NCBI GenBank assembly: GCA_022496185.1
Contig: WTXG01000020.1
Coordinates: 248,001-312,000, forward strand
Reading direction: 5' to 3'
Source: Multifurca ochricompacta
Lineage: Eukaryota > Basidiomycota > Agaricomycetes > Russulales > Russulaceae
DNA length: 64,000 nt
The notes under the pieces were generated by a model. It did not search any database. It had not been told where the DNA came from and saw nothing but the letters and a program-made list of their open reading frames with translations. Positions 46,757-59,613 of this stretch are shown one piece after another. Within the stretch, counting starts at the first letter, position 1, and each line of letters begins with the position of its first letter. Position numbers and translations under genes: made by a program.

Positions 46757-46930
46757 CTTATATACCTCAAGGGATGGTCTGTGTGCACTGGGAATAAGTC
46801 CACAAGTGCCAGACAATAAAGTAGAGGGATAAAGGCCATTGGCCAATTGGTAATCACATGCTTGTACATCATTACTAAGGTACATCAGTCAGCTACTGTG
46901 GAATGTGAGAAAGAAAGTAATAATGATATA
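46757..46930 (-). repeat. Copia-type LTR fragment, U3 side, minus orientation
   Basis: Reverse complement keeps GGACTTATTCCCAGTGCACA, CACAGACCATCCCTTG and the TATATAAG region of the copia LTR family. It is the other half of the LTR split by the chromovirus at its TATA box. The sequence stops at the TA that borders the Tc1 palindrome. Confidence 0.75.
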
Positions 46931-47294
46931 CAGTGCCTCACAAACTGAGTCAATGTTTTGCACTTTTGCACTGTTTGTTGAATATCACATCAGCCAAAAC
47001 AAATATAAACAAAGTCTTGGTAGACCATAAAAGGTACAAGATAAGGGTTATGTAATGCAACAATAATTATGTAATTCTGATCAAAACCTGTGGAGCTATG
47101 GCCATTTCAAATTGGGGACTCATTGACTCAGTTTTGTGAGGGGGTATCAGAAATACCAGAATCTGATGCTCCATCAAATGTACAGCAACCAATCCTTAAT
47201 ATATGGTTACCATAGCTATCTTAATATTGATGGGACCTGGAATAGAGCTATTTGACCATGGTTTACATTCCCAGAATATTATAATTTCCCAATG

Positions 47295-47760
47295 CACCCC
47301 ACCTCCTCTGCTCAGAAAGAAAACATGCTCTCTCTGGCCTCTGAAGGTCATTCCACTGACACTATTGCCTCCAGACTCAGCCTCAGCCAGTCCACAGTCT
47401 CTAGGACACTCAGAACCCTCCTTCCCAACCATCAGTCACCTCATTTTGGTCATCCTTCCAAGCTCTCTGCTACCTCTGAACATGCTATCATGACACAAAT
47501 CACCACAGGAAAGGTTGCCAATGCTGTCCAGGCCACAAAGCACATCAATTCCATCATCCCCAATCATGTCTCTTCACAAACTGTGCACTGGGTTCTTAAA
47601 CAACATTCATTCAAGGCCATAATAAAGAAGACAAGGCCACTACTCTCTGCAGTACATTGCAAGAAGCACTTAGCCTTTGCTTTGAAGTACCAAAACTGGA
47701 CTATGGAGGACTGGAAGAGGGTGATTTGGTCAGATGAGACCAAATCAACGGTTGGGTCAG
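47295..47760 (+). pseudogene. Tc1-like transposase N-terminal part, left arm
   Basis: Frame with a helix-turn-helix (NMLSLASEGHSTDTIASRLS, LSQSTVSRTLRTLL), a second DNA-binding region and the start of the DDE domain, RVIWSDETK with the first catalytic Asp. The sequence breaks off just after this motif, where the inverted copy begins. About 150 of the usual 340 or so residues are present. Confidence 0.88.
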
Positions 47761-47761
47761 T

Positions 47762-48184
47762 CCAGTCCTCCATAGTCCAGTTTTGGTACTTCAAAGCAAA
47801 GGCTAAGTGCTTCTTGCAATGTACTGCAGAGAGTAGTGGCCTTGTCTTCTTTATTATGGCCTTGAATGAATGTTGTTTAAGAACCCAGTGCACAGTTTGT
47901 GAAGAGACATGATTGGGGATGATGGAATTGATGTGCTTTGTGGCCTGGACAGCATTGGCAACCTTTCCTGTGGTGATTTGTGTCATGATAGCATGTTCAA
48001 AGGTAGCAGAGAGCTTGGAAGGATGACCAAAATGAGGTGACTGATGGTTGGGAAGGAGGGTTCTGAGTGTCCTAGAGACTGTGGACTGGCTGAGGCTGAG
48101 TCTGGAGGCAATAGTGTCAGTGGAATGACCTTCAGAGGCCAGAGAGAGCATGTTTTCTTTCTGAGCAGAGGAGGTGGGGTGCAT
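47762..48184 (-). pseudogene. Tc1-like transposase N-terminal part, right arm
   Basis: Inverted copy of the left-arm frame, identical except for at least one residue (Phe for Ser in SATxEHAIM) and truncated at MEDW, just before the first catalytic Asp. Overlapping reading frames that continue into the other arm are artefacts of the palindrome. Confidence 0.88.
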
Positions 48185-48548
48185 TGGGAAATTATAATAT
48201 TCTGGGAATGTAAACCATGGTCAAATAGCTCTATTCCAGGTCCCATCAATATTAAGATAGCTATGGTAACCATATATTAAGGATTGGTTGCTGTACATTT
48301 GATGGAGCATCAGATTCTGGTATTTCTGATACCCCCTCACAAAACTGAGTCAATGAGTCCCCAATTTGAAATGGCCATAGCTCCACAGGTTTTGATCAGA
48401 ATTACATAATTATTGTTGCATTACATAACCCTTATCTTGTACCTTTTATGGTCTACCAAGACTTTGTTTATATTTGTTTTGGCTGATGTGATATTCAACA
48501 AACAGTGCAAAAGTGCAAAACATTGACTCAGTTTTGTGAGGCACTGTA

Positions 48549-49413: not shown

Positions 49414-50190
49414 CATCATATATGGTACTGGATCTTCATAACTCCTGGCTGTAGATACTGAAAGGTAATCAGGGGGAGGTCAAGGTTTCTGGGGAGGTGC
49501 TTCTTCTGATGCCAGGGCCCTTACTGGAGTGGTGCAAGGAGGTCCTTGACCTTGGATAGCCCTGGTCTTGCTGTGACACTGGTTAGCAATGTGGTTAGGT
49601 TTTCCACAGTAGAAGCAGAGCTTGTTTTCTCATTGGTATTTCTTTTCTTCTGGGGTTAGCTTGGTAGTGCATGGGGGGGTGTTTGGATTTCTGGGTTGGG
49701 AGGGAGTAACAAAGTTGACTTGGGCCTCTTGGTTGTCAGTGGTAACTTCTCCAACATGCAGGTGGGGAGGCCAAGGCTTGGTAGTCTTGCCATAGAGCTG
49801 CCATGCTGCATCAAATTCTCTAGCCTTAGTGACAAGATCATGGAGTGTGGTGGGCTGTGGGGATAGTCCAAGAAGTTTTTGTCCCAGGCCCTGATTGATC
49901 ATGCTTCAGAAGGCATAGATTTTGGTGTTTTCATCCACTGTAGCATGGGTAGCATGGGTGGACCACTCTTGGTACCAGTCATTGAAGGGGTGAGTGCCTT
50001 GACAAATTTCATACATGGCTTTGGTAGATAGGAGGCGACTCTCTACTGGAATAAACTGTTTCTCAAAGTCAATTCTGAAGTGGTCCCATGTCCCAAAGGA
50101 AGGGGGGTTGGCTTGGAGTGCAGTGTTGGTGCGGTCTCTGGCCCATTCTCCTGCTGGTGTGTCAAGTTTAAAGTGGGTGAGGGCTGCAGA

Positions 50191-50412
50191 TGTTGACACA
50201 GTCAGGTGTCGCACGATGCAACTCTGCATGACCTCATATAGGAGGTTGTGTACCACTATGAACCTGAGGCCGTGTAGCTCAGTGGTTTAGAGCACTGGAC
50301 CCGGCTTGTCCAGAGGTCTTGGGTTCAATCCCCAACGTGGCCATTTCTTTTCTGGTGTGTGAGCCAGGGTCCTGTTTAAGGTCCCTTGATCGGGGTGCGT
50401 GTTTAGCCAACA
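50191..50412. repeat. TRIM LTR, left copy
   Basis: 222 bp; contains the tRNA-like stretch at 50268-50342. Confidence 0.88.
50268..50342 (+). other. tRNA-like sequence with Pol III A and B boxes, in left LTR
   Basis: A cloverleaf can be drawn: a 7-bp acceptor stem (GGCCGTG with CGTGGCC, two G-U pairs), a D stem GCTC/GAGC, a T arm TTGGG-TTCAATC-CCCAA, and an anticodon arm CTGGAC-CCGGCTT-GTCCAG with six pairs instead of five and C in place of U33. Box A is TAGCTCAGTGG and box B is GGTTCAATCCC. The aberrant anticodon arm makes a functional tRNA unlikely. Confidence 0.75.
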
Positions 50413-50503
50413 TGGTAGCAGCACGTCGTCCACTCCGGGTCATTGGCTCCCTAGAGGGAAATTGGATAGAGTTTGCATGCACGGTTACATGTGCGTAGGG
50501 GCG

Positions 50504-50725
50504 TGTTGACACAGTCAGGTGTCGCACGATGCAACTCTGCATGACCTCATATAGGAGGTTGTGTACCACTATGAACCTGAGGCCGTGTAGCTCAGTGGTT
50601 TAGAGCACCGGACCCGGCTTGTCCAGAGGTCTTGGGTTCAATCCCCAACGTGGCCATTTCTTTTCTGGTGTGTGAGCCAGGGTCCTGTTTAAGGTCCCTT
50701 GATCGGGGTGCGTGTTTAGCCAACA
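50504..50725. repeat. TRIM LTR, right copy
   Basis: 222 bp; same as the left copy except one visible T/C difference in the anticodon arm (CACTGG versus CACCGG). Confidence 0.88.
50581..50655 (+). other. tRNA-like sequence in right LTR
   Basis: Second copy of the tRNA-like module. Boxes A and B are unchanged; the T/C change disrupts one anticodon-stem pair. Confidence 0.72.
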
Positions 50726-50905
50726 GCAGAGACTCGTCTACTTTCATCAGTGAAGGCCCCTTCATTTAGGTAATAATAGTTGGCTAGCTGAGACCAGAAG
50801 TGTTCTGCTTTTTAGAGGCTTGGCCATCAAAAGATTCTGGGGGTGACCCCAAGATCTTTCCATTGGAGGCAGCAGCAGTACTCATGGTATGTAGGGGTGT
50901 TGTTG

Positions 50906-52323: not shown

Positions 52324-53593
52324 TGTTGACACAGGACGTGTCTGGAGATGCTTCAGGCATCTAAGGATCGCTTTAGCTGTAGATAAGATTAGAGTAGGTT
52401 CCGGAGTTTTGGACTTTTTATGTTATCTTTATTACATTTCTTTCTCACCTTACTCAGCTGATTAGTGATGTGACACTTTTTGTCGATGTAATGGTTTGTG
52501 ACGCGCTTGTTACGCGCGTGTGACGTTTTGTGACGGTTTTTCGACCCGCGCGCATTTGACTTTTGTTTCAACGTTTCGACTTCTTACTCCGAGTCATGTG
52601 ACTGGAGTTGATGATCTTTCTTATCTGATCTGATTTTCGGACTTAGACTGACTTGGACTGACACTCATTTGCTTTTGGAGTGGGTGCAACACCACTTGCA
52701 TTCCCTGACTCAATCTCCACTGGAGATTCACATGGACATTTACTTTACTATATTGAATCTTCTACTTTACTTACAAAGACACTAGAGTACTTGTATTTAA
52801 GCAGTACATACTGGAGAGACAGACTTTAAGTCTGTTCTCTTGTATCTAATACAGGTTTACTGTTCCTCCTCAGAATCCCTCTTGAACTTCCTAAGCTGCA
52901 ACTTAGGAAGCCTTCACCCCAGATCTTCAGCAGGGCCTATTGCCACTGCCTCGACTCGCTTCTTGCACGCGCCCCTCCTATTTTGTGTGGGCCTTGAACC
53001 TTGAACGCGGCCCTTGTGGTTTGCCTTGATACCTTGAAACTGGCACGCGCCCCCTTGTACTTTGTGGGCCTTTGAATCTTGACCGTGGCTTGCTGTAGTC
53101 TGCCCTGAAACCTTGAATTAGCTTGACCTTGACACCTTGACTTTGAAGCTTGCACGTCCTGCATCTTGAGGACCTCAGGCCAGAACGACCTTTGACACAG
53201 CAGAGACCTGGCTGTGACAAGTGATGGACTTAGTAATGTGCAGTAAGCATGTGATATCTCTTTGGCCAATGGCCTTTATCCCTCTCTGTTTATTGTCCAG
53301 CACTTGTGGACTTATTCCCAGTGCGCACAGACCATTTCCCCTGGCCCCCATGGGTATATAAGGGTGTCTGTTTCGTCTCTTTCACTTCAGAGTTCTTCTA
53401 ACCTCTGAAGTGTAAGTTCCTTCTTTACTATACTGTCCTTTACCTTTAACTAACCGTCTTATGTAGACTACCTGTTTTCTAGGTCAGTAGTATAGTTAAT
53501 ATAGAGTTCTTCTAACCTCTGAAGTACTACCTGTTTTCTAGCCTAACTGCTACTAACCACAGTCAGTATAACCAGCAGCATGATTGTTTGACA
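52324..53593 (+). repeat. Copia 5' LTR, interrupted by a 751-bp solo LTR
   Basis: About 514 bp of copia LTR in two pieces (52324-52468 and 53225-53593) around the insert. Contains the TATATAAGGG motif near 53353 and repeated TTCTTCTAACCTCTGAAG segments. Confidence 0.9.
52469..53219. mobile_element. Solo LTR nested in the copia LTR
   Basis: 751 bp beginning TGTGACAC and ending GCTGTGACA, flanked by the 5-bp duplication AGTGA (52464-52468, 53220-53224). CpG-rich repeats (GTGACGCGC) lie near its left end, in contrast with the copia LTR around it. Not related by eye to the other LTRs; probably a gypsy-type family. An ORF of 110 codons inside it is not meaningful. Confidence 0.88.
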
Positions 53594-53605
53594 GGTTATG
53601 GGCCC
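53594..53605 (+). promoter_or_regulatory. Copia primer binding site, half-tRNA type
   Basis: GGTTATGGGCCC immediately follows the LTR. It is complementary, with one mismatch, to the anticodon stem-loop region of eukaryotic initiator tRNA-Met (GGGCTCATAACC), as in copia-type half-tRNA priming. Confidence 0.6.
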
Positions 53606-54531
53606 TGCCGCTCATACTGATCTGTAAAACTCCCTTTTTGTTCATTACAGCCCGACTCGCTTTTTTGCACACAAACTCACAAAAGCTTCAAAGTTTTTCC
53701 CACCGCTTTCTTCCTGTGAGCTTTCCTATTTACTGTTTGTGCACCTTAACACCCCACAGGATGACGCAGTTTACTGCTCATCCTGAACTGTTTGGCTAGC
53801 CCTTTGGGGTTCTTGCAAAAGGTGATGAGGGACCCTAAGCGGGTGAAACACCTTGAGCTCCTTGAGTGCGCACTAGGTATTAGTAATTTCTTAGTTGTAG
53901 CTGGGTTTTCGTCCCATAGATAGTTTTAGTAGGCCTATAGCCAGAAGCTTGTGGCTTTAAGTCCAGTCAATGCTTGGCTCTGTCTGTAAGCCGGGTTTAG
54001 CGACCCGCATGTGGAGTTTAGGGTCTAGAACAAGGCATGGGTAGTCACTCCCATGACGCTTGGGCTCGATACAAGTAGGCTGCACTACTATAGTCTATAC
54101 ATAGTAGATATAGTCTTCATCTCTGGGCATAAGTATCCGTTGCCTTGTAGGGTAACCACGCCCTACCAGAGACAGACTAGACATCTACTCAGTCATGGCC
54201 CCAATCATCTAGGGCTTAATCATGGACTCCACCACCAGCATTAGAGGAAGGGCTATATACCTTTGTCTCTAATGGAACTTGTGGTTGGCTCCTCCATGAC
54301 ATGACTCCCAGTCTGTTTACACTAGACACTCTGGCTAGTCTACCAGAGCTTATGTCTAGTTGCAGGATTGCGCTAGACAGCTTTTACTATACCTAGAAAG
54401 TCGCACAACAGAGGCAGGACCTTCTTAGGTTCTGAAGCATAGCGCCACAGTGTGGGGTGGCACTCTTAAGCGAGACCTGGGCACTGGTTCTAATTGCTCC
54501 TTGGAACCAGGAACTTTTATTACATCTCAAA

Positions 54532-55268
54532 ATGCCATCTTCAATTGTCTTCCCTCCCTCCTCCAAGATGGAACGCCTCGATGGGTCCAACTGGCAGGTC
54601 TGGTCTGCCAACTTCAATGCCCTTTTGAGGATGAATGGGCTCAGGAGGCACATTATCACGTCTTATCCTGATATGCCCCTCCTCCCAGAGGACAAGGAGG
54701 AAAAGGAGAAAATGCAGAAGGAAGTAATTGACCCCATCCTTAGGGATTGGATGGGAGAAGAGGAAATGTTAATTGGGCTCCTCTTTCTTAACGTCACCCA
54801 AGAGGTCTACTCCCAAGTAGCCTCTGATGCCAATTATCCTTCTCTCAGTGAGAAGTATAATAAGTTGTAACGGCTATATGGCTCTGTAGGTAGCATGGCC
54901 ACATATAATTTGTGGCTTGCCCTGGTGTCCTTCCGTCTTGATGAAGGACAGACATTTAGAACCCAATTACAAAAGGTTCTAGATGCCAGGAGTACCCTTA
55001 GGGAGAATGGGATGGAGGTCAATGACCTCCAGATGAGCTTCATTTGTTGAAGGCTCTCCCAGACTCCTACAGTGCCATCGCTGGCTCCATACTGGCCTCT
55101 GGCGATCCAGAGCGTCTTTCTCCTCAGGACCTTGTGCAGAGGTTCCTGAATGAGGAGAGTCGCCTGGCAGGTCCCTCGGGAAGTGGTAGTGCAGTCCTGT
55201 CTAAGGCTGCACCATCAAATCTAAACCAAAAATACAAATTTATCACCACTTCCCGCTGCTGCCCCTAG
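54532..55268 (+). pseudogene. gag: Gag of the copia element, frameshifted
   Basis: Starts MPSSIVFPPSSKMERLDGSN with the copia-type WQVWSANFNALLRMNGLRRH. A TAA at 54868 splits it; the next block is in the same frame (RLYGSVGSMATYNLWLALVS, FRTQLQKVLDARSTLR), then a frameshift leads to LKALPDSYSAIAGSILASGD and RLSPQDLVQRFLNEESRL. The CCHC knuckle follows at 55285, in another frame. Confidence 0.82.
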
Positions 55269-55284
55269 TTCACAAGGGGTGGTC

Positions 55285-58200
55285 TGCTTCTATTGCCAAA
55301 AGCCTGGACACAAGTCCAATGCTTGCGCAAAGAAGAAGAAGGACCTGGAGAATGCCAAAAGGGCAAGGCAGGGAACAAGAAGAGGGCTGAGGCCCAAAAT
55401 GTACATACTATAGCCACCGTAGTTAATGGTAGTGGCAAAATAGAGGAGGTGCAGAAGCACCTCGCATTCGCCTTTACGTTCACACCTATAATCTGGATAT
55501 CAACTCAGATTATTGGATGCTTGATAGTGGAGCAACGGCCATTTCAGTCCAACCTTGAAGACTTTGATACATATAAAGTCGACACCACCCATGAAGTATC
55601 ACTAGGTGACAACTCCATAGTCAAAACAAGTGGAGTTGGGACCGTAGTCATCAGGACTGATCAAGGTTTTGACTTGGAATTAAGCAATGTGCTCCACATG
55701 CCTGGAGGACATAAAATACTCTCCACCAGTGCCCTAGTAGAAAAAGGGGCAACTGTGTTCTTTGATAACAAGAAGGCAACAATAAAATATGGCGACAACA
55801 TTATAGCGGAAGCATGGAAGTTTGGCAAATTGTATTGGGTACTAGGCAAACACGTCCTAAGTAGTATCCATGCATCTGCATCTGCCTCACTAGAAATCTG
55901 GCATCAAAGGATGGGCCATATGTCAAAAGAGGCCCTGAAAAGATATGCTCCTGAGGCGGTAAAAGGCCTCAAAATTAATAATAGCCAAGTGGAAGACAAG
56001 CCATGTTATGGCTGTGAAATGGGGAAGTCCCATCGTCTTCCATTTCCCCCATCTTCAAAGCGTGCATCAGCTCCCCTTGAGATCCTTCATAGTGATCTTG
56101 TAGGTCCCTTGCAGTGCAGTTCGATACAAGGGAATCTATACTTTGCCACCTTCTTGGACGACTTTAGCAGATACGCTTTAATCGTTCCAATGAAGTCTAA
56201 AGATCTGTTCACACCAGTTTTTAATAAACTGAAGACACTACTTGAAAATAAATTTAATCATAAAATCAAGTGTCTTCATACAGATCGTGGTGGCGAGTAT
56301 GTGAACAAGGTGCTGAAGGCAATGCTTGAAGATTATGGCATAGAGCATAAACTTACAATGCCGTATAGCCCACAACAGAATGGAAGGGCCAAGAGATTCA
56401 ATAGAACCATTATGGAAAAAGGCACTAGCATGCTGCACAATGCTGGCCTGTCTCTTGGTTTCTGGGAGTGTGCTGTTGAAACAGCATGTCATATTTATAA
56501 TAGAACTCCCATCCGTTCTAATAAGTGGAAAACTCCGCTTGAGCTTCTGGTTGGGAACAAACCAGATGTCTCATACTTTAAGGTCTTTGGTTGCAAAGCC
56601 TTTTATCATGTTCCAGAGGGCAAGCGGCATAAATTAGATCCCAAAGCCAGGGAAGCCGTCTTTGTCAGGTATGAGCCCACTTCTAAGGGCTATACACTTT
56701 GGGATAGTCATACCCGGTCTCTCATCTCTTCACGAGATGTTACATTTGATGAGAGATCCTTCCCATCCTGCTCTGTAAAGGACAACAGAGCAGATAAACC
56801 TATAGAGCAACCTACAGAAGGTGGCTCATTTTCTTTACCAGGTGGCCCAGTCCAGCCACCACCAGCAACTGCTACACAAGTTCCTGAGGCTCCTCAGCAT
56901 GAGGAAGACCTGGAAGAGGAACAGGAGGACATCGTACCTCCTCAATTAGCACCACAGCCTACCACACCCACACGTAATGTAGACACCACACATCCTCAGA
57001 CTATATATCAGACCCCTCCATCTCAAATCATGGAACCATCCTCCCCTCCCAAAAGAACCAAAGCAATCAGAAAATCACAAAGGATTGCAGACAGGATTCC
57101 TCAACCTAATTTTCAGAGGACAAGTCCATGCTCTGAACAACGAGATAGGGCAATCCAAGAAGATTTAGACTTGGATACTGCATGTCCCAATCGGAATCGT
57201 CGTCTGAATCCTCGCTTCTACAATGAGGATAATGCAGAGTTCGTGCAAGGTTCTTCCAGACTTGGTCAGATGGATCTACTCAATGCTGCAGGATCGCCTT
57301 ACAGGGATCCGCTTACATTTAAAGAAGCAATGGAGTCTGATAATGCCAATGATTGGCTTGAGGCATGTCAATATGAAATTGATGCCTTAGAAAAACTTAA
57401 AGTGTGGCGCCTTGAAGACCTTCCTGAAGGTAGAAAGGCTGTAAAGTCCAAGTGGGTCTTTAAATTGAAAGCAGATGGACGCTTTTGTGCTAGGCTTGTA
57501 GCAAAAGGGTTCACCCAAATAGAGGGGGTGGACTTCGATGAAACTTTCTCCCCAGTCGCCAGATTTGAGTCTCTTAGACTATTGTTAGCGTTGGCCGTGC
57601 TTGAGGATTGGGAAATCCACCAAATGGATGTCAAATCGGCATTCCTACATGGCGATCTGGATGAGGAGATCTATATGGAGCAACCTGTTGGTTTCTCGTT
57701 GCTGGACAAGAGTCCAAAGTTTGTAGGCTACAGAAGGCTCTGTATGGCCTCAAACAAGCTTCCCGAGCATGGAACTTGCAATTCCATGCAGTTCTCAATG
57801 AACTGAGCTTTACTTGGACTACTCTGATGCAGGAGTATATGTGTATCATCACCAAGAGGGGGATGGTTCACTTTTCGTCATTTTATATGTTGATGACATC
57901 ACTATACTTGGGTCCTCCACTAAGAAGATTCAATGGCTGAAGGACTCTCTATCTAGCTGATATGAGATGACCGATCTTGGCGAAATCCAGTCCTACCTTG
58001 GAGTTAACATCACCAGGGATCATCCTAACAAGACACTGGATATTGACCAGACAGCCTATGTATCCTCAATAGTTGAGAGGTTTGGAATGGGGGATTCCAA
58101 CCCAGTATATACTCCTCTACCCTCTGGCATGGATGTTCATTTGGTCAAGTCTGAAGACCAGGCATCTACCTCTGATATTAAGAGGTATCAGCAGTTAATG

Positions 58201-58843
58201 GGGTCTCTGCTTTGGGTGCAGATTGGAAGCAGACCTGACATTAGTTTTGCTGTTGCACGCCTTAGCAATTTGCTTCCAACCCTTCCCAGCAGCACATGCG
58301 ACTAGCAAAGTATGTCTTAGCCTATCTAAATGCTACAAAAGACTACAAGTTGCGCTATTCTGGAGGGAATGGTGAAGTTGGCCTTCATGGCTTTGCGGAT
58401 CCTCATGGGGAGATCAAGAGGACTGCCACTCCACCTCAGGCTACGTCTTTTTCCTTGCCAATGGAGCCATTAGTTGGTGTTCCAGGAACAGAAGACAGTA
58501 GCACAGTCCACCACAGAAGCCGAGTATATGAGCCTAGCAGAGGCTTCAAATCAGGCAGTGTGGTATAGGACGTTCATGCAGGAGTTGGGATATGAAGTTA
58601 TTCACCCATACAACTGCACTGTGACAATAAGGGTGCAGTAGATCTTGCATTAAACCCTGTCACAGGAGGCGATCAAAGCACATACCAATAAAGTACCATG
58701 CCATTAGGGAGTATGTAGAATCACACCAGATAGACTTGGTGCGAACTCCCACTGGAGAGATGCTAGCAGATGGCCTTACAAAGTCTCTGCCTAGATCATC
58801 TTTTGATCACATGGTAACTGGTTTTGGACTAGTGCTGGAATGA
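55285..58843 (+). pseudogene. pol: Pol of the copia element (knuckle, protease, integrase, RT, RNase H)
   Basis: The zinc knuckle CFYCQKPGHKSNAC and the protease motif YWMLDSGATAI lie in frames different from the main reading frame (55293-57806). That frame carries the integrase zinc site (IWHQRMGHMSKEALKRYA, CYGCEMGKSH), the DDE core (HSDLVGPLQ, LHTDRGGEYV, PQQNGRAKRFNRTI), the RT start WVFKLKADGRFCARLVAKGF and KSAFLHGDLDEEIYMEQPVG. A frameshift near 57715 then separates KALYGLKQASRAWNLQFH, the RT active site ILYVDDITILG, and EIQSYLGVNITRD. RNase H is readable as DSSWGDQEDCHSTSGYVFFL, TEAEYMSLAEASNQAVWYRT and a C-terminal LADGLTKSLPRSSFDHM. One in-frame TGA (57958) again replaces a likely Arg. 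Confidence 0.9.
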
Positions 58844-59093
58844 AGGAGCTGGAATCTGGAGACTTTGTACACCAGTCTCACTTTCCCACCATGCCACATG
58901 AGCACGTTCTCGACCTCGAGAGTGACGCAAGAGGTGTGTAGACTTGCATAAGCGAATCTACAACTCGTATGCAAAGCTCACAAAGAGTTAGAGAAGTTGG
59001 ATCTCTGGCTGGTGATATGTTCGTTCAATTGTGAACAGCAGTGTGCTCATTCAACTCATTTCCATTTATGATCGATGCCTTCACCATGGAGGG

Positions 59094-59608
59094 ATGTTGA
59101 CACAGGACGTGTCTGGAGATGCTTCAGGCATCTAAGGATCGCTTTAGCTGTAGATAAGATTAGAGTAGGTTCCGGAGTTTTGGACTTTTTATGTTATCTT
59201 TATTACATTTCTTTCTCACCTTACTCAGCTGATTAGTGATGGACTTAGTAATGCGCAGTAAGCATGTGATATCTCTTTGGCCAATGGCCTTTATCCCTCT
59301 CTGTTTATTGTCCAGCACTTGTGGACTTATTCCCAGTGCGCACAGACCATTTCCCCTGGCCCCCATGGGTATATAAGGGTGTCTGTTTCGTCTCTTTCAC
59401 TTCAGAGTTCTTCTAACCTCTGAAGTGTAAGTTCCTTCTTTACTATACTGTCCTTTACCTTTAACTAACCGTCTTATGTAGACTACCTGTTTTCTAGGTC
59501 AGTAGTATAGTTAATATAGAGTTCTTCTAACCTCTGAAGTACTACCTGTTTTCTAGCCTAACTGCTACTAACCACAGTCAGTATAACCAGCAGCATGATT
59601 GTTTGACA
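59094..59608 (+). repeat. Copia 3' LTR
   Basis: 515 bp, near-identical by eye to the two pieces of the 5' LTR. Confidence 0.92.
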
Positions 59609-59613
59609 GTTTC

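Follow-up and report, generated by a model that had tools for sequence, protein, structure and literature searches.

A Helenus-type TRIM with a tRNA-like sequence in each LTR in the genome of Multifurca ochricompacta

The 64-kb stretch of Multifurca ochricompacta DNA analysed here (the window) contains, at positions 50191-50725, a short repeat-bounded unit, which raises the question of what kind of element carries a tRNA-like sequence in both of its terminal repeats and how such a unit might be copied. The unit is a 535-bp gene-less TRIM of the Helenus type, each of whose LTRs contains a tRNA-like sequence of the Pol III promoter type (Table 1). The LTRs of 222 bp with TGTTG/CAACA ends, the 91-bp spacer and the GCAGA duplication given in the preliminary description of the locus were all verified in the sequence; the LTR pair has a spacing of 313 and a single mismatch, at LTR position 106. 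The TGG described there as PBS-like belongs to an uninterrupted 12-nt complement of the initiator tRNA-Met 3′ end of this genome, and the G-rich tract reported before the second LTR is present by inspection. The proposed insertion into a gypsy gag was also borne out, with the interrupted minus-strand ORF 49909-50256 matching PF03732 (E 7.1e-6; the 49909-50190 portion is flank) and the element sitting antisense within this gypsy-type gag. The longest ORF (at least 50 aa) touching the element has 116 aa, most of it host gag, and no mobilisation protein was found.

Table 1. Features of the 535-bp element and of its insertion site, in window positions.
Feature	Position	Strand	Evidence
Gypsy-type gag remnant hit by the insertion, left part	49909..50190	-	PF03732 on ORF 49909-50256
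Left target site duplication GCAGA	50186..50190	.	sequence
5′ LTR, 222 bp	50191..50412	+	repeat comparison
tRNA-like sequence, 5′ LTR	50268..50343	+	ARAGORN anticodon GGC; Rfam tRNA 57.5 bits
A box TAGCTCAGTGG	50275..50285	+	sequence; A-box pattern in 68/69 LTRs
B box GGTTCAATCC	50322..50331	+	sequence; B-box pattern in 69/69 LTRs
Four-T Pol III terminator-like run, sole T4 run of the LTR	50348..50351	+	
U5 block GGTCCCTTGATCGGGGTG	50380..50397	+	17/18 nt common with family B
Primer-binding site	50413..50424	+	12 nt complementary to initiator tRNA-Met 3′ end incl. CCA
G-rich tract GTAGGGGCG, presumed polypurine tract	50495..50503	+	position and composition, by inspection only
3′ LTR, 222 bp	50504..50725	+	repeat comparison
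tRNA-like sequence, 3′ LTR	50581..50656	+	ARAGORN; Rfam tRNA 49.8 bits
Four-T run, 3′ LTR, presumed transcript end	50661..50664	+	
Right target site duplication GCAGA	50726..50730	.	sequence

The tRNA-like nature of the stretch inside each LTR was confirmed by two programs. ARAGORN called one tRNA per LTR and none elsewhere in the window, and both Rfam scores lie above the gathering score of 29 of the tRNA model; an Rfam scan of 50100-50800 at E 0.1 returned the tRNA family only, with no 5S rRNA match. The near-tRNA of the preliminary description stands, with a length of 76 nt instead of the 75 nt claimed, and its C33 is found in the anticodon loop of family A (CCGGCTT). The clear A and B boxes reported inside each LTR are likewise present.

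When the 535-bp sequence was compared with the 53.8-Mb genome, at least 40 matches were obtained (the best 40 of 276 candidates), which indicates that the element is not a chance arrangement. These matches fall into a family A, with 97-100% identity, and a family A′, with 81-83%; the tRNA-like part led to a family B, whose U3 is different. At least three related families thus reside together in this genome, the element described here belonging to A. All 14 full copies with checked ends (six A, six A′ and two B) are flanked by exact 5-bp TSDs that differ from one another, and all carry the tRNA-like part inside both LTRs; the incomplete or rearranged loci L007, L013, L039, L042, L047 and L049 were left out of this count. 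What the preliminary description had named as speaking against it was not observed, since other full copies have the LTR-LTR structure, different TSDs and the same tRNA-like part. The LTRs of a pair differ at 1, 0, 2, 0, 0 and 11 positions in the six A copies and at 1, 3, 6, 5 and 7 positions in five A′ copies, and the identical or near-identical pairs indicate that some A copies are recent.

Solo LTRs are common. From 132 complete LTRs, partial matches having been dropped, 69 remained after duplicate removal (34 A, 23 A′ and 12 B); these are distinct sequences and not 69 independent insertions. When they were classified by script, 28 proved to be solo LTRs flanked by an exact 5-bp duplication and 16 to be 5′ LTRs, while 15 were 3′-LTR-like or without duplication and the remaining 10 were classed as other. 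As an example of the lack of independence, two A′ LTRs, L072 (G000:C335:122.1 kb) and L084 (G000:C88:46.9 kb), have the same flanking bases and are for this reason taken as one insertion copied with its surroundings. In another locus, L042 (G000:C122:35.2-35.5 kb), two opposed A′ copies were observed to be joined in their internal regions, both without a 5′ LTR.

TRIMs with tRNA-derived LTR sequences have been described under the name Helenus in fungi, animals and plants (Kojima 2024, PMC10886601), the hosts named in the available text being Pucciniales, Agaricus bisporus, Coprinopsis cinerea, Amylostereum areolatum, animals and a lycophyte. According to the same text, Helenus elements range from 311 to 1263 bp, have 5-bp TSDs in fungi, carry an A box TRGCY..YGG and a B box GGTTC, and commonly, if not universally, show disagreement between anticodon and tRNA body. 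The element studied here resembles them, as far as they are described there, in its TRIM size (535 bp), the tRNA-like part with A and B boxes in both LTRs, the PBS, the G-rich tract as presumed PPT, the 5-bp TSD, the presence of several families per genome and solo LTRs, and an anticodon that does not fit the tRNA body, here an Ile-like body with Ala or Ser anticodons. It differs in that the tRNA-like part is Ile-like and in that the PBS is directed to a tRNA 3′ end, a type reported as a minority among fungal Helenus (PMC10886601). Terminators are another point of difference, since they are not discussed for Helenus in the available text of PMC10886601, where the word occurs once, for Cassandra.

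Judged by its sequence, the 535-bp element has the structural features that define Helenus, and it represents a new family of Helenus and not a new kind of element. The idea of a hybrid between SINE-like and LTR-like mobilisation in the preliminary description was thus right as to kind, a TRIM with a tRNA-like promoter in a basidiomycete, and not as to the novelty it implied, Helenus having been named in 2024 in fungi that include Agaricomycetes (PMC10886601). The finding extends Helenus to a Russulaceae host (order Russulales), in which no fewer than three families live side by side and some copies are recent. A kinase gene of the window is 100% identical, over 90% of the query, to a protein of Multifurca ochricompacta. 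Russulaceae are absent from Table 1 of Kojima 2024, and "Russul" does not occur in its main text (PMC10886601). Amylostereum areolatum also belongs to Russulales. Literature on transposable elements of Multifurca or Russulaceae gave nothing relevant by title; that on Helenus or TRIMp3 since 2023 gave one relevant report among those listed, and a 2026 meeting report has the word twice. In the wider literature on TRIMs with tRNA parts, Kojima 2024 again ranked first.

Cassandra of plants is another TRIM, described as having a gene module for Pol III, together with a terminator, in each LTR; its module is derived from 5S rRNA, whereas the one found in this fungus is derived from a tRNA. Ajax of nemerteans shares TRIM structure, a small-RNA promoter sequence in the LTR and a 5-bp TSD, but carries a 5S rRNA fragment, as far as the available text describes it (Kojima 2024, PMC10886601). 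The tRNA-derived SINEs have the same tRNA-type internal promoter; in contrast to the LTR pair and PBS seen here, they are generally described as lacking LTRs or a PBS and as being mobilised by non-LTR elements. A related explanation of the locus, in which a SINE or an array of tRNA pseudogenes has come to look like an LTR pair by chance, would account for the tRNA-derived promoter sequence but not for the LTR pairs, TG/CA ends, PBS and constant 5-bp TSDs. It is hardly credible, and was ruled out on the basis of the TSD-flanked full copies and the solo LTRs with exact TSD (28 of the 69 LTRs).

With regard to how the element is copied, we consider it probable that this Helenus-type TRIM is transcribed by Pol III with a leaky terminator in LTR 1 and is copied in trans, most likely by a Copia-class element, with tRNA-iMet as primer. 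The LTR-LTR structure, PBS, G-rich tract, TSDs, copies, boxes and T4 run are present in the sequence; Pol III use, read-through and the partner are what we infer. Pol III would start at the tRNA-like part of LTR 1, read through the weak T4 run of this LTR and stop at the T4 run of LTR 2. The resulting RNA would carry the tRNA-like part at both ends, as the R repeat, with U5 and the PBS after the first R and U3 before the second. A host LTR retrotransposon, most likely of the Copia class, would package and copy this RNA with the tRNA-iMet primer; reverse transcription, strand transfer and integration would proceed in trans as in LTR elements, and the integrase of the partner would insert the DNA, giving the 5-bp duplication. 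Pol III transcription of Helenus is expected, and not demonstrated, in Kojima 2024 as available (PMC10886601).

The T4 run on which such read-through would depend is a constant feature. In all 69 LTRs there is a single run of at least four T, which never exceeds four and lies 25-27 nt from the B box start, and in three reference copies (whole elements of 534-543 bp) the two LTR runs are the only T4 runs. It has to be considered that the 69 LTRs are related copies, nearer three cases than 69, that the sample was partly picked by tRNA score (all of B and part of A′) or by the U5 block (part of A), so that the box counts lean upward, and that the borders of family B regions are approximate (a shift of about 2 nt) in the box counts as well as in the region comparisons given below. 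Absence of T4 runs outside the terminators is unremarkable alone, the probability of none in shuffles being 0.28, 0.25 and 0.58.

As a control, we used 16 host tRNA genes, obtained from 20 regions after removal of the Helenus-like L072, L083 and L084 and of L088 and L089 (organellar by eye) and addition of the iMet gene. A run of five or more T (5 to 12 T) lies within 40 nt downstream in 15 of the 16; the iMet gene has T4 runs only within 40 nt, with a T6 run beginning at nt 41. The first T run is a T4 in 6 of the 16 genes, and 5 of these 6 have a longer run behind it within 40 nt. Since a single T4 run is present per LTR, as compared with the longer or backed-up runs of the host genes, the Helenus terminator is short and without back-up in the LTR. 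The single T4 run per LTR is one addition to what is known of Helenus, and the element offers a clean case for testing how a Pol III transcript gains a second LTR through a leaky terminator. Automatic tRNA calls in genomes of this kind include LTRs.

The predicted transcripts of A, A′ and B (404-412 nt) were folded in silico, with 40 context shuffles each. In the predicted folds, the two tRNA-like copies exchange acceptor halves with a probability of 0.50 (A), 0.95 (A′) and 0.80 (B), the means in shuffled context being 0.44, 0.36 and 0.58, respectively. The exchange, being common also in shuffled context, follows mainly from having two copies. In A and B, none of the 40 shuffles has a fold energy as low as that predicted for the transcript, and in A′ 35 of the 40 lie above the predicted value. 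A more far-reaching reading, in which the leaky T4 run of LTR 1 and the used T4 run of LTR 2 make the tRNA-like gene the R repeat and the acceptor-half exchange would moreover hide the copies from tRNA-processing enzymes and hold the RNA ends for strand transfer, is unlikely as a whole; if true, such an arrangement would show how a Pol III transcript can serve as the genome of an LTR element.

The conservation pattern speaks partly for and partly against the proposed Pol III use. In comparisons across families, the tRNA-like part is the most conserved region: A and A′ are identical at 72 of 76 positions in this part, at 61 of 81 before it and at 54 of 69 after it, and A and B at 65 of 76, with U3 at random level. 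Inside each of the three families, A, A′ and B, its variation exceeds that of U3, which counts against the proposal, and in A only it also exceeds that of U5. An alternative in which the same Helenus-type TRIM takes its genomic RNA from a U3 TATA box through Pol II, the tRNA-like part being a passenger or boundary, is at odds with this between-family conservation. It draws on the A′ LTRs (e.g. L008), whose U3 has a 26-nt stretch, GGTATATAAGGTTATGCTCCATGTAG, in which a TATATAA precedes the tRNA-like part by about 30 nt, this stretch being identical in 37 of 38 genome matches though three mismatches were allowed. On the other hand, family A has only CATATAGG at this place and B has no clear TATA box by eye, and both nevertheless keep the A box, the B box and the T4 run. 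A TATA box at such a place also suits Pol III in some fungi, which was counted against Pol II use, and we regard a Pol II origin of the RNA as unlikely.

Another explanation, a working host tRNA gene captured by the LTR and spread for tRNA dose, would agree with the ARAGORN and Rfam scores. Among the host tRNA genes compared, a sample of only 16, the one most similar to the tRNA-like body is, however, tRNA-Ile-AAT, whereas the anticodons called by ARAGORN in most copies are Ala GGC in A, Ser GGA in A′ and Ser AGA in B, so that the sequence has the appearance of a promoter relic and not of a functional tRNA. In addition, the family A loop has C33, and the copies with Ser anticodons are 74-75 nt long without a long variable arm, while host Ser genes have at least 82 nt. 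Such a capture is thus very improbable.

To return to the proposed Pol III-transcribed TRIM copied in trans, its PBS, TGGTAGCAGCAC, is complementary over 12 contiguous nt to the initiator tRNA-Met 3′ end, CCA included. The gene for this tRNA, which has a short intron after the anticodon, lies on C24 (L120, about 1436-1520) and was located by a pattern for the 3′ half; an intron-less initiator-tRNA pattern had no match in the genome. CA plus the 12-nt PBS has 15 matches in the genome, each of them in an A or A′ copy, of which one is rearranged. The window also contains a Copia element at 52324-59612, with RT and integrase domains and with its 5′ LTR split by an insertion of about 750 bp, whose PBS, GGTTATGGGCCCTGC, corresponds to the anticodon arm of that initiator tRNA once its intron is removed. 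Eight further Copia-like places show the same PBS after an LTR-like end, making nine in all; they were recognised by the PBS pattern itself, which says nothing on other Copia elements. The TRIM and the Copia elements recognised here thus seem to rely on separate sites of one initiator tRNA, which makes this genome a clean case for how a TRIM finds its partner. Since the nine places use the spliced iMet anticodon arm and not the 3′ end, the PBS cannot name the partner.

The start of the LTR gives a link to Copia. The first 11 nt, TGTTGACACAG, are identical in family A and the window Copia, and over the first 70 nt the comparison of the A and Copia LTRs gives a score of 24, reached by none of 500 shuffles. 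The corresponding score was reached by 5/500 shuffles for A′ and by 373/500 for B, which has only TGTTGA in common with Copia, and by 151/500 when A was compared with gypsy. Whole LTRs gave weaker results against Copia, with 10/500 (A), 36/500 (A′) and 51/500 (B) shuffles reaching the score. From these comparisons, help from the Copia class is likely, if unproven, for this TRIM; Copia partners are argued for fungal Helenus in the available text of Kojima 2024 (PMC10886601). The iMet 3′-end PBS and the 11-nt LTR start common with one Copia are further additions to Helenus.

Searches for an autonomous relative gave the following results. The 91-bp spacer, extended by a few bases of the LTR, had 19 matches in the genome, all of them Helenus copies, with no autonomous relative among them. 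PBS patterns of 14, 12 and 12 nt had 15, 24 and 23 genome matches, and no autonomous element with a 3′-end PBS was found among these: the 14-nt pattern matched Helenus in 15 of 15 cases, and outside Helenus there were 8 matches to the second pattern, as compared with 5 for the reversed control, and 4 to the third, as compared with 7. None of these was seen by eye at the expected place upstream of the best 150 of 1159 Copia RT candidates.

Junctions between Copia and A′ were observed at two places. Both join Copia gag directly to the 3′ part of A′. In L047/L065 (G000:C85:58.2 kb) the joint is an 11-nt common sequence, TGGTAGCAGCA, and in L039 (G000:C12:55.4 kb) it coincides with the end of the tRNA-like part; the gag breakpoints are about 40 nt apart. 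The 3′ flanks of both junctions had no match to Copia in the loci examined. If they had arisen by a template switch within one particle, the partner would be identified, and a Helenus LTR would be expected upstream of gag; no A′ U3 was found there in either contig, and we do not claim this origin, deletion or DNA recombination being as likely. A third candidate chimera, L049, was read instead as an A′ LTR within which a Copia LTR is nested.

Two further observations concern sequences of the window. The U5 block common to A and B has 76 genome matches at up to two mismatches, as compared with none for the reversed control. When read in sense orientation, this block is similar to the T arm of the initiator tRNA, the presumed primer, over 13/14 nt in A (0/1000 shuffles reach the score), 11/12 nt in B (6/1000) and 8 nt in A′ (74/1000); the idea that it imitates this arm was set aside as an oddity, the likeness not being kept in A′. 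Outside the element, positions 46929-48548 form a large palindrome of 1.6 kb, 98% identical to its own reverse complement.
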